From Clostridiaceae bacterium (GTDB lineage Bacteria; Bacillota; Clostridia; DSM-8532): a stretch of DNA of 36,025 nucleotides. Position numbers and translations under genes: made by a program. The notes under the pieces are model-generated. The model was not told the DNA's origin. It worked only from the letters and a program-made list of their open reading frames with translations, and did not search any database. Positions 18,952-23,784 of this stretch are shown one piece after another. Position 1 is the first letter of the stretch. Each line of letters starts with the position of its first letter. Where the stretch lies: NCBI GenBank assembly GCA_012521105.1, contig JAAYNA010000178.1, forward strand, positions 1-36,025, in the 5' to 3' direction.

Positions 18952-20715
18952 CTAATCCATTATATATTTCGGTTCGCCCATGTCCAGCTCCGGTTTTATT
19001 TTTTTCAGGAAGCTGTCTAACGACATAAAACCAAGATTACCTTCTTTTCTTGATCGTACTGACAAGCCGTTCATTTCAACTTCTTTATCCCCAATAATTA
19101 ATATAACCGGGATTTTCTCAAGTTCCATTCTTCGTATCTTTGTTCCCATTTTGTCATTTCCGGAGTCGTAGTTAACCCTTAGTCCCAGTCTTTTTAATTT
19201 CACAGACAGTTCTCTGCAATAATCTTTATGACGGCTGCTGACAGGAACAATTCCAATTTGAACAGGCGCAAACCACAGTGGAAAATCCCCGTTATAATGT
19301 TCAATAAGCATTGCAAAGAATCTTTCCAGGCTTCCGAATAATGCCCTGTGTACCATCAGCGGAGTATGTTTTAAGCCATCGTAGCCGGTATATTTCATAT
19401 TGAATCTTTCCGGAAGATTGAAGTCAAATTGAATGGTACTGCACTGCCACTCTCTTCCTAAAGCATCCCGCAGCTTTAAATCTATTTTTGGACCATAAAA
19501 TGCTCCACCGCCTTCATCAATCTCATATTCCAAACCAGCCCGAATTACTGCGTCCTTTAGTATATCAATTGCATTGTTCCAGTCATCCTCGCTGCCTATC
19601 GACTTATGTGGTTTTGTTGCCACATATGCCTTAAAATCGTCTAGTCCGAAGGAACGCAAAATATACAGCGAAAACTTAAGTGCATTGAAAACCTCATCAT
19701 TAGCCTGTTCTGGAGTGCAAATTATATGAGCGTCGTCCTGAGTAAATCCTCTTACTCTCGTAAGCCCTTGCAGTGTTCCCGACAGTTCATACCGGTATAC
19801 TGTAGCGTACTCAGCATAGCGAACTGGCAGATCTTTATATGAACGTAGTGAGCTGTTATATATCATTACATGGAAAGGGCAGCTCATTGGTTTAAGATAG
19901 TATTCTTCACTGTCTATTTCAATAGGACTGTACATTGAATCCTTATAAAATTGAAGATGTCCAGAGGTTTTCCACAGTTCAGACCGTCCTATATGGGGTG
20001 TATAGACCCATTCATAACCATTAAGAACATGTGCTGACTGGCTGAACTTTTCCAGCAGGTATCTGACCATAGCGCCCTTCGGATGCCATAAAACAAGACC
20101 TTGCCCAATATCCTGAGAAGAACTGAAGAAGTTAAGTTGTTTTCCAAGGTTTCTATGATCACGTTTACTTGCCTCTTCTATTTTGCTAATATATATTTCC
20201 AGCTCTTTTTCGTTTTCCCAGGCTGTTCCATAAATCCGTTGGAGCATGGCTTTGTTAGCATCTCCTTTCCAATATGCTCCTGAGAAACTCATCAGTTTGA
20301 AAGCCTGTAAATCCAACTCTTTCAACGAGGATAAAAGCGGACCATTGCACAGATCAAAAAAACGACCGATTCTGCATATGGTTATCATAGAGTTCTCCGG
20401 GATTTGAGAAAGCTCGTTTATTAACTCAAGTTTATATGGCTGATCGCAAAACATATGGCGAGCCTCATCTATACTGACAGACTCAGATTTTACCTGGTAT
20501 CCTCTTTTAATTATTTCTCGAATTTTTTCTTCTATTTGGTTTATATCTTCTAAAACCAAAGGTCGTGATAATTCAAAATCGTAAAAGAATTCATTTTCGG
20601 AAACTGTTCCTGTTCCCAATTTGACTTTGCTGAAAACTTCATTAACAGCAAATGCCAAAACAAGAGTCATAGTATGTTTTATTTTATATAACTTTTCATT
20701 TATAATGTGGCTCAT
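18952..20715 (-). CDS. thrS: threonyl-tRNA synthetase lacking TGS domain, degenerate editing site
   Basis: Class II ThrRS, which charges tRNA-Thr. The catalytic core is complete: zinc ligands C279 (KPMSCPFH), H330 (FTQDDAH) and H456 (MVHRALFGSLERF) have the same spacing as E. coli C334, H385 and H511. The anticodon domain follows (VQIGIVPVSSRHKDY). Two features are unusual. The N-terminal TGS domain is absent. In the editing domain, positions matching E. coli H73, H77, C182 and H186 are H14, L18, C123 and L127, so two of four ligands are lost and editing of Ser-tRNA is probably defective. I chose the ATG at 20715 because AAAGGAG lies 6 bases before it; an upstream ATG at 20748 lacks a site. 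Length is 587 residues. A T-box leader lies upstream. It may be a second, specialised ThrRS. Confidence 0.92.
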   Translation of the reverse strand: MSHIINEKLYKIKHTMTLVLAFAVNEVFSKVKLGTGTVSENEFFYDFELSRPLVLEDINQIEEKIREIIKRGYQVKSESVSIDEARHMFCDQPYKLELINELSQIPENSMITICRIGRFFDLCNGPLLSSLKELDLQAFKLMSFSGAYWKGDANKAMLQRIYGTAWENEKELEIYISKIEEASKRDHRNLGKQLNFFSSSQDIGQGLVLWHPKGAMVRYLLEKFSQSAHVLNGYEWVYTPHIGRSELWKTSGHLQFYKDSMYSPIEIDSEEYYLKPMSCPFHVMIYNSSLRSYKDLPVRYAEYATVYRYELSGTLQGLTRVRGFTQDDAHIICTPEQANDEVFNALKFSLYILRSFGLDDFKAYVATKPHKSIGSEDDWNNAIDILKDAVIRAGLEYEIDEGGGAFYGPKIDLKLRDALGREWQCSTIQFDFNLPERFNMKYTGYDGLKHTPLMVHRALFGSLERFFAMLIEHYNGDFPLWFAPVQIGIVPVSSRHKDYCRELSVKLKRLGLRVNYDSGNDKMGTKIRRMELEKIPVILIIGDKEVEMNGLSVRSRKEGNLGFMSLDSFLKKIKPELDMGEPKYIMD

Positions 20716-20756
20716 AAAACACTCCTTTATCATTTTTCTTGCCTTCAATACCTTAG

Positions 20757-21021: not shown

Positions 21022-21276
21022 TAATAAAAAACTCCCATCCCATAAAGGGATGAGAGTATTTCTCACGGTTCCACCCAAATTACAGCTACATTAAGCAGCT
21101 GTCACTCATTATGATTATAACGGAATCACCGGTTATACTTACTGCTAGTTCAGTATACTGCTTAAAGGGGGTTTTCAATTTTCCATGTTTAGAAGTGCTC
21201 TCAGCCACCGACACTTCATCTCTGATAAACTGGGTAAAATTTACTCGTCCTTGTCATTGCATTTGCCTTTATATTT
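21022..21276 (-). promoter_or_regulatory. T-box riboswitch leader, probably threonine-specific, for thrS
   Basis: Read on the minus strand, the conserved T-box GGGTGGAACCGTGAG occupies 21077 to 21063. It is followed by a terminator stem (about 21057 to 21031) and a run of six Ts. Upstream is a Stem I with a GGTGG-containing distal loop closed by GAAGTG/CACTTC. A candidate specifier is ACC (Thr) at 21172-21170, in the context GAAAACCCCC before TTTAAGCAG. Uncharged tRNA should favour antitermination. The leader is unusually far (about 305 bases) from the thrS start. Confidence 0.85.
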
Positions 21277-21687: not shown

Positions 21688-23784
21688 ATGGACAAAAGAG
21701 GGGATGATTTACTTGGGACAGAAATGAACAATAGGAATTTAAAAAATACCGAATGCAAAATAGAGAACAAAAAGGATTGTAAGGGTATGGATGAAATGAC
21801 TTCTAACAGACCTAATTTTCCTAAAAGAGCAGTTATTACAGCGGGAATGCCTTATGGAAATAAAGAATTACATCTTGGCCACATCGGTGGTGTTTTTGTG
21901 CATGCCGATACTTTTGCACGGTTTCTTCGGGACCGCATAGGAAAAGAGAACGTAATTTTTGTTTCAGGAACCGACTGTTATGGTTCTCCCATATTGGAGA
22001 ATTATCGCCAGTTGGTTGAAAGCGGTGAATTTGAAGGAACCATAGACGAATTCGTAAAACTTAATCATGATCTTCAAAAAGAAGTACTGGATGAGTACTT
22101 TATTGACATAAGCCTTTTTGCAGCTTCAAGCTTTGGCCCGGCTGCTGAGATTCATCATGAATTTTCCAAGGAGTTCATTAACAGATTGTATGAAAACGGA
22201 CACCTGGTGAAAATGACTACGTCTCAATTCTATGATCCCGAACTTGGTGTTTTTCTTAACGGCCGGCAGGTAGTTGGCAGATGTCCTATTGAAGGTTGCA
22301 AATCAGAAAGAGGTTATGCAGATGAATGTGCTTTAGGGCATCAATATATGCCTGCAGATCTTATTAATCCAAAGAGTACTCTTACAGGTAAAAGACCTGA
22401 AATGAGGGATGTGACCAACTGGTATTTCAAGCTTGACAGTTTTCGCGACCTGTTAATCCAGTGGGTAGAGAAGCTTGAGAATGATGAAAGTTCCAGAAAA
22501 TTTGTTATTAACAGTATAAAAGAATTCCTGGAACCTCCGGTTATATATGTAAAGAGAGAATTCCTTGATATATTAGACTCAATACAGGGTAATTTACCCG
22601 ATTATTCTTTAATAGATGAGGGAAAATCCTCTGTTATAATGTCTTTCGATTGTTTGGAGAAAAGAGAGAGAGCATCCTTAATACTTGCTGAAAACGGGGT
22701 ACGCTTCCGCACAGGGAAAACTCTTGTACCATTCAGGCTTACCGGTAATATAGAATGGGGAGTACCTGCTCCATGTATTGAAGGACTGGATGGCCTTACA
22801 ATTTGGGTTTGGCCCGAATCTCTGTGGGCACCAATATCATTTACAATGACATATCTTGGGATGAACAATGAAGATAAGAATAAGTGGAAAGAATGGTGGT
22901 GCTCCAAGGATTCACAGGTCTATCAGTTCCTTGGTGAGGATAACGTATATTTTTATGGTCCTGCCGAAATGGCAATGTTTATGGCTCAGCAAGGCAAAGA
23001 ACCTTCTGCTGAACCCAGTGAGGGTGATTTGCAAATACCGAAGCTTATTGTTAATAACCATATTCTATTTCTAAACAAAAAAGCAAGCAGCAGCGGAAAA
23101 ATTAAGCCACCTTCAGCAAAGGATTTACTAGAACACTATACGCCTGAACAATTAAGGGCACATTTCCTTGGTTTAGGGCTTGGAATCAGAAGTGTAGGTT
23201 TTCAGCCAAAACCATTTAATCCTGCAGCTTCAGAAAAGGACAGTGATCCTGTCCTGAAAGAGGGGAATTTACTTACAAATGTATTTAACAGGGCTGTCAG
23301 GTCTTGTTTCTACACAGCACAGAAATACAGCGAAGGAAAAATTCCTATAAGGGACATTAGTGAAGATATTATAAAAGAGTCTAATGAAACCATCCTTGAA
23401 TATGAAAGGTTAATGTTCAGATTTGAATTCCACCAGGTTATGAACCTGATGGATACCTATATCCGAAACATGAATAAATACTGGTCAAAAACAATCAGGG
23501 AAGCTGAAACAGAAAATAATGATGATTTAAGATTACAGGTATTGGCCGACACTTTCCATATGGTACGTACAGCAGCTGTTCTTATGCATCCTATTGCTCC
23601 GAAGGGAACCGAAATGATACGGGAATACCTTAATGTAGGAGAAGAGCTGTGGAGCTGGGACAGGATATTCGACCCGATATATTCCTTTATGGATAATCCC
23701 GAAGAACACAAGCTGAAATACCTTAAACCAAGGGTTGATTTTTTTAAGAAGCATCCAAGTCAAATTAGCCAATACGAAAAATAA
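21688..23784 (+). CDS. MetRS-like class I aminoacyl-tRNA synthetase, non-canonical
   Basis: The protein has the layout of methionyl-tRNA synthetase: HLGH (62-65), a zinc knuckle (C199, C204, C214, H218), a catalytic fold and an alpha-helical anticodon domain. Several key sites differ. The KMSKS loop reads KASSSGK (465-471), losing the second lysine. The methionine-pocket strand, YVWxDAPIGY in MetRS, reads WVWPESLWAP. The anticodon-domain NKY...PW motif reads NKYWSKTIRE, without PW. Residues about 284-345 look like an insertion, and there is no C-terminal tRNA-binding (EMAP-type) domain. Start choice is uncertain: ATG 21688 has no clear ribosome site, and 21724 or 21787 are alternatives. It is divergent from thrS. 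It may have changed specificity or a non-translational role. Confidence 0.8.
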   Translation: MDKRGDDLLGTEMNNRNLKNTECKIENKKDCKGMDEMTSNRPNFPKRAVITAGMPYGNKELHLGHIGGVFVHADTFARFLRDRIGKENVIFVSGTDCYGSPILENYRQLVESGEFEGTIDEFVKLNHDLQKEVLDEYFIDISLFAASSFGPAAEIHHEFSKEFINRLYENGHLVKMTTSQFYDPELGVFLNGRQVVGRCPIEGCKSERGYADECALGHQYMPADLINPKSTLTGKRPEMRDVTNWYFKLDSFRDLLIQWVEKLENDESSRKFVINSIKEFLEPPVIYVKREFLDILDSIQGNLPDYSLIDEGKSSVIMSFDCLEKRERASLILAENGVRFRTGKTLVPFRLTGNIEWGVPAPCIEGLDGLTIWVWPESLWAPISFTMTYLGMNNEDKNKWKEWWCSKDSQVYQFLGEDNVYFYGPAEMAMFMAQQGKEPSAEPSEGDLQIPKLIVNNHILFLNKKASSSGKIKPPSAKDLLEHYTPEQLRAHFLGLGLGIRSVGFQPKPFNPAASEKDSDPVLKEGNLLTNVFNRAVRSCFYTAQKYSEGKIPIRDISEDIIKESNETILEYERLMFRFEFHQVMNLMDTYIRNMNKYWSKTIREAETENNDDLRLQVLADTFHMVRTAAVLMHPIAPKGTEMIREYLNVGEELWSWDRIFDPIYSFMDNPEEHKLKYLKPRVDFFKKHPSQISQYEK

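Follow-up and report, generated by a model that had tools for sequence, protein, structure and literature searches.

A survey of 366 genomes sorts the formation of Gln-tRNA(Gln) into categories built on class Ib GlnRS and on GluRS with GatCAB only (PMC3927822), and a current synthetase catalogue lists none of class Ia for glutamine (PMC11580382). The methionyl-tRNA synthetase (MetRS) fold has been turned to other substrates in the hydrazine synthetases, whose MetRS-like domains take Glu, Gly and others as the amino acid (PMC8664883). T-box leaders respond to the charging state of the tRNA to which their specifier codon belongs, and often regulate the corresponding synthetase (PMC11477304).

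Here we examine a MetRS-like gene in a 36,025-nucleotide stretch of DNA from a Clostridiaceae bacterium (GCA_012521105.1, contig JAAYNA010000178.1; hereafter the window). Its product is quite probably a glutaminyl-tRNA synthetase descended from a class Ia MetRS of the archaeal type. A little more cautiously, we consider it likely that its family represents a third independent route to Gln-tRNA(Gln) that is widely distributed among gut and anaerobic bacteria, is regulated by glutamine T-boxes and, in reduced genomes, can take the place of GatCAB and GlnS. The GlnRS reading is backed by the fold of the protein, invariant changes in its amino-acid pocket, glutamine-reading T-boxes, the neighbouring genes and the coexistence of the gene with metG. 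The novelty lies in a specificity not known in the MetRS lineage, within a synthetase of known class; no description of the family was found in the open-access papers searched.

Fold and active-site motifs

Pfam and NCBIfam group the 698-residue protein with MetRS, far under all metG cut-offs (192.9 bits against TIGR00398, with a curated cut-off of 336 bits, and 230 bits against PRK00133, with a curated cut-off of 587), and it gives no match to PF00749 or TIGR00440, the models for class Ib GlnS. An AlphaFold2 model built from 64 family members (pLDDT 89, pTM 0.89) has the form of a complete MetRS, including the HIGH motif, the zinc knuckle and a complete and conserved anticodon-binding domain, and superimposes on 1pg2 with a Z score of 36.1 and an rmsd of 2.5 over 470 residues. 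The whole fold is common to the family and the archaeal and E. coli-type MetRSs (1rqg, 1pg2) over about 470-540 residues, as are the HIGH motif, zinc knuckle and helical anticodon domain; the archaeal type also has a loop of the KFSTS kind. The family differs from these enzymes in its methionine pocket, the loss of W461, an insertion of ~65 residues, its profile scores, its separate clade and its glutamine T-boxes. Since the first ~40 residues of the protein show no conservation across the family and are predicted to be disordered in the model, translation probably begins downstream of the annotated start, near codon 34-37. The features of the locus are as follows.

18952-20748, - strand: second ThrRS, 598 aa, with its own Thr (ACC) T-box at 21043-21266 (- strand)
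21688..23784, + strand: MetRS-like gene, 698 aa; proposed class Ia glutaminyl-tRNA synthetase
21871..21882, + strand: HIGH motif HLGH, residues 62-65; H62, G64 and H65 invariant
21973..21981, + strand: D96-C97-Y98, amino-acid pocket; E. coli D52 retained, H54 replaced by Y
22282..22341, + strand: zinc knuckle C199, C204, C214, H218 (C-C-C-H)
22537..22737, + strand: family-specific insertion, residues about 284-350 (~65 aa), ending in the conserved RTGKTLVPFR
22804..22842, + strand: WVWPESLWAPISF (373-385), pocket strand and helix; E. coli W253 retained, Y260 replaced by P382 (69/69)
22948..22968, + strand: YFYGPAE (421-427); H301 replaced by Y423, F304 by A426, W305 by E/Q427
23077..23094, + strand: KKASSS (464-469), KMSKS equivalent, K465-A-S-S-S
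23473..23505, + strand: anticodon-domain segment lacking the PW motif and W461

Across the family, the residues that define the methionine pocket (E. coli numbering) are replaced, Y260 by P, H301 by Y, W305 by E or Q and R233 by G in 69 of 69 members, all of which also have Y in place of H54; D52, Y15, W253, H21, H24 and D296 are retained. The stretches WVWPESLWAP, YFYG.A(E/Q), GTDCYGSPI, KKASSS and RTGKTLVPFR are invariant or nearly so. W461, the tryptophan of the PW motif that reads the CAU anticodon, is absent from the anticodon domain. The equivalence of N391/R395 (N534/R538) is ambiguous by one residue, as placed differently by hhalign and MAFFT, and no claim is built on that region.

The initial annotation had described a kept HIGH motif and zinc knuckle, the WVWPESLWAP pocket strand, a missing PW motif and an insertion of 60 residues, all of which were recovered here, the insertion at slightly greater length. 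It had also described KMSKS as altered. The loop does read KASSS, but the second lysine is likewise missing from archaeal-type and some bacterial MetRSs, which have KFSTS or KISTS; judged by these alignments, its loss is in itself neither abnormal nor a mark of inactivity. Dead or unusual chemistry was rejected as an explanation of the loop, T occupying that position in archaeal-type MetRSs. The possibility that the altered motifs are alignment artefacts falls away, as they are signatures of a family of more than 100 genes.

The MetRS fold would suit an alternative methionyl-tRNA synthetase, inhibitor-resistant or serving as a backup in the manner of MetS2. We regard this as highly unlikely: the methionine-binding residues are those that have been replaced, and the T-boxes and genome counts described below point the same way.

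T-box leaders and neighbouring genes

A motif scan found a T-box directly upstream of the MetRS-like gene in 30, that is only some, of the loci examined; ten T-boxes immediately 5' of the gene exceed the Rfam RF00230 cut-off (L019, L020, L036, L044, L046, L047, L054, L058, L070 and L071). With the specifier taken as the three nucleotides that follow the conserved GAA in the specifier loop, all 29 readable leaders carry a glutamine codon (CAA 26, CAG 3) and none the methionine codon AUG; the 30th is interrupted by a contig end. The same rule returns ATG for the canonical metG T-boxes in L023 and L095, and ACC for the ThrRS-like T-boxes of the window and of G193, a genome of the same genus. The antiterminator reads UGGC in 15 of the 30 leaders, of which the C pairs with G73 of tRNA-Gln (observed in the reduced genome G005) and not with A73 of tRNA-Met; in the two T-boxes of canonical metG the sequence is UGGU. 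The specifiers and discriminator bases of the orthologues thus point to tRNA-Gln, and argue against the alternative MetRS. Control by tRNA-Gln is seen where a T-box is present, in orthologues; none was found at the window copy. Two of the loci with glutamine T-boxes (L019, L020) encode proteins 72% identical to that of the window, and we infer that the window copy shares the glutamine specificity of its orthologues.

The commonest Pfam family among 145 immediate neighbours is tRNA-synt_1c (14, of which 13 have a GluRS-type anticodon domain); MtnA comes next (8), then glutamine synthetase (5 loci). A GluRS gene is also paired with the MetRS-like gene in annotated records of Monoglobus and of Ruminococcus albus 7 (pRUMAL02). 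Canonical class Ib GlnRS is encoded close to the gene in L020, L048 and L050, and GatA-GatB lies ~6.6 kb from it in L057. Because some carriers have canonical GlnRS or GatAB nearby, the MetRS-like gene is often redundant. The initial annotation had suggested a different amino acid or a different tRNA; this idea gains support from the T-box specifiers, the discriminator bases and the glutamine-related neighbours, which lead to tRNA-Gln.

The same T-box and neighbour evidence would fit the main rival of the GlnRS reading, a glutamyl-tRNA synthetase specific for tRNA-Gln (a functional GluRS2, or GluGlnRS) that places Glu on tRNA-Gln for amidation by GatCAB, and the GatA-GatB genes in L057 are in keeping with it. 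We consider it unlikely. The neighbour in L020, L048 and L050 is canonical GlnRS, not GatAB; G005 carries the gene, yet neither GatA nor GatB; and a pocket lined by carboxylates (E/Q417, E/Q427) would not point to glutamate. The family would resemble GluRS2 in being specific for tRNA-Gln, whereas GluRS2 uses Glu, needs GatCAB and is of class Ib ancestry.

Genomic distribution and the proposed route

Relatives of the gene number more than 100, at 43-87% identity, in Clostridia, Erysipelotrichales, Coriobacteriia, Spirochaetales, Armatimonadetes and Ozemobacter, with the changes almost invariant. A scan of GTDB genomes gave 108, of which 80 were kept at 52-87% identity; plasmid and contig records hold others, including one from Collinsella at 44%, and no phage-borne copies were found in IMG/VR. 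Within the class, 43 of 291 genomes carry the gene, as a single copy every time. NCBI labels the relatives only as 'class I tRNA ligase family protein'.

In phylogenetic analysis, the family forms one clade (100/100) separate from 15 MetRSs, and is placed as sister to two hydrazine-type MetRS-like proteins (95/84), a weak grouping with long branches. This placement, with a YF(W/Y)G...MA.xGK stretch in common, would accord with an amino-acid ligase that works without tRNA, as does the MetRS-like portion of the hydrazine synthetases, a reading that we hold to be extremely improbable. Both groups (PyrN and Spb40, 9l8v, on the hydrazine side) are MetRS folds re-aimed at another amino acid; the hydrazine-type proteins, however, act without tRNA, have cupin and hydroxylase partners and a degenerate anticodon region, and their pocket letters are unlike those of the family. 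Neither a cupin nor a lysine/ornithine N-hydroxylase (SidA-type) is present in the window or among the recurrent neighbour families of 80 loci, the family has kept a whole and conserved anticodon domain, and the gene is controlled by tRNA-sensing T-boxes. The non-translational use raised in the initial annotation finds no footing in the neighbourhoods or in the intact anticodon-binding domain. Hydrazine-synthetase-type clusters of hydroxylase, cupin, MetRS-like and ATP-grasp genes were observed on Pantoea and Deinococcus plasmids (L140, L141).

A canonical metG whose KMSKS is intact lies elsewhere in the genome of the window (G000:C62), so that the MetRS-like gene is not the only MetRS gene there, and the genome also has a canonical thrS (C165) besides the one next to the gene; therefore the MetRS-like gene is an addition. 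Across two samples, metG coexists with it in 66 of 68 genomes, which again disfavours the alternative MetRS. On the other side, metG was undetected in three near-complete reduced genomes that carry the MetRS-like gene (G005, G271 and G360), an absence that would be more simply explained by a methionine function. This is tempered by the relatives of these genomes. Among 85 genomes of the genus of G005, 46 have the MetRS-like gene and 81 have metG, and one (G374) has neither. Synteny with L151, L152 and L154 indicates that metG is cleanly gone from its ancestral site in G005 (L170:5181-5318), where 137 bp are left between conserved neighbours; in relatives metG has moved to another site, and in G271 the ancestral site falls at a contig end. 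Replacement of metG by the MetRS-like gene in reduced genomes was considered and set aside, resting as it would on one clean deletion and one contig end, with G374 lacking both genes.

G005 (0.86 Mb, all 862,550 bp read) encodes the MetRS-like protein and two tRNA-Gln genes, and tblastn across its full length detected neither GatA nor GatB nor a class Ib GlnRS. AsnRS, AspRS, GluRS and most other synthetases were present by the same search; canonical MetRS and TrpRS were also absent, and because of this the missing GatA, GatB and GlnRS may reflect assembly gaps, and the lack of metG appears in genomes that look incomplete. A congener without the MetRS-like gene (G336) has GatA, GatB and GlnRS. 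No GatAB or GlnRS was found in the 417 kb read of a further, partial genome (G100), and PLSDB, which covers only part of the Monoglobus and Collinsella genomes, had no row for GatB in either; the PLSDB result carries no weight in the argument here.

Taken together, these observations suggest how a MetRS-derived GlnRS may work. The class Ia machinery would be retained, with HIGH and the KASSS loop for ATP, a CP domain that carries zinc and a helical domain for the anticodon; the pocket (MPY..., DCY, WVWPESLWAP, YFYG.AE/Q) would bind glutamine and the altered anticodon domain tRNA-Gln (UUG/CUG). The protein would activate glutamine with ATP and then transfer it to tRNA-Gln, a direct route beside class Ib GlnRS and GluRS with GatCAB. 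In the many orthologues with a tRNA-Gln-sensing T-box, the gene would be switched on when uncharged tRNA-Gln accumulates. The proposed reaction is that of GlnS, Gln being joined to tRNA-Gln, but the family has the class Ia fold and a helical anticodon bundle where GlnS has a beta-barrel, and the context of its HIGH motif is different, without PPEPNGYLHIGHAKS. By homology it is no member of GlnS; what is proposed is a GlnS-like function.

If this is correct, these proteins would form a new family of synthetases and supply a further evolutionary origin for one of the 20 steps by which the genetic code is written; they would also offer a natural case of a change of both amino-acid and tRNA identity inside a class. 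Two unrelated LysRSs exist, and are comparable in kind to the specificity change proposed here. The annotation of many gut bacteria would be corrected, genomes seemingly without a route to Gln-tRNA would be explained, and the design of orthogonal tRNA pairs would gain a new scaffold.

ThrRS and other local associations

The initial annotation had proposed that the MetRS-like gene and the divergent ThrRS gene form an accessory locus. The pair is present in the window and in G193, and thus holds within the genus; it does not extend beyond it, as a clear ThrRS neighbour was found in 0 of 80 other loci (L022 has one partial class II match), and the ThrRS-like gene has a threonine T-box of its own. 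A ThrRS partnership as a general rule was rejected, and the linkage is local.

Two further associations were set aside. Methionine salvage, suggested by the MtnA neighbour in Erysipelotrichales, is confined to one clade, and the tRNA-fMet beside the gene in reduced genomes is an ordinary neighbour within one genus.

Individual loci hold other arrangements. On the conjugative plasmid pRUMAL02 of Ruminococcus albus 7 (L138, 131-4468), a GluRS-family gene adjoins the MetRS-like gene, and in L048 (7796-13959) GluRS, a T-box, the MetRS-like gene and a convergent class Ib GlnRS lie inside about 6 kb. In an Armatimonadetes genome (L056:8327-9970), an ORF for a 548-aa protein without Pfam or NCBIfam match precedes the MetRS-like ORF, from which only 7 bp separate it. 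In Clostridium manihotivorum, a RAGATH-18 RNA (L044:12265-12326) is located just 3' of the MetRS-like gene.
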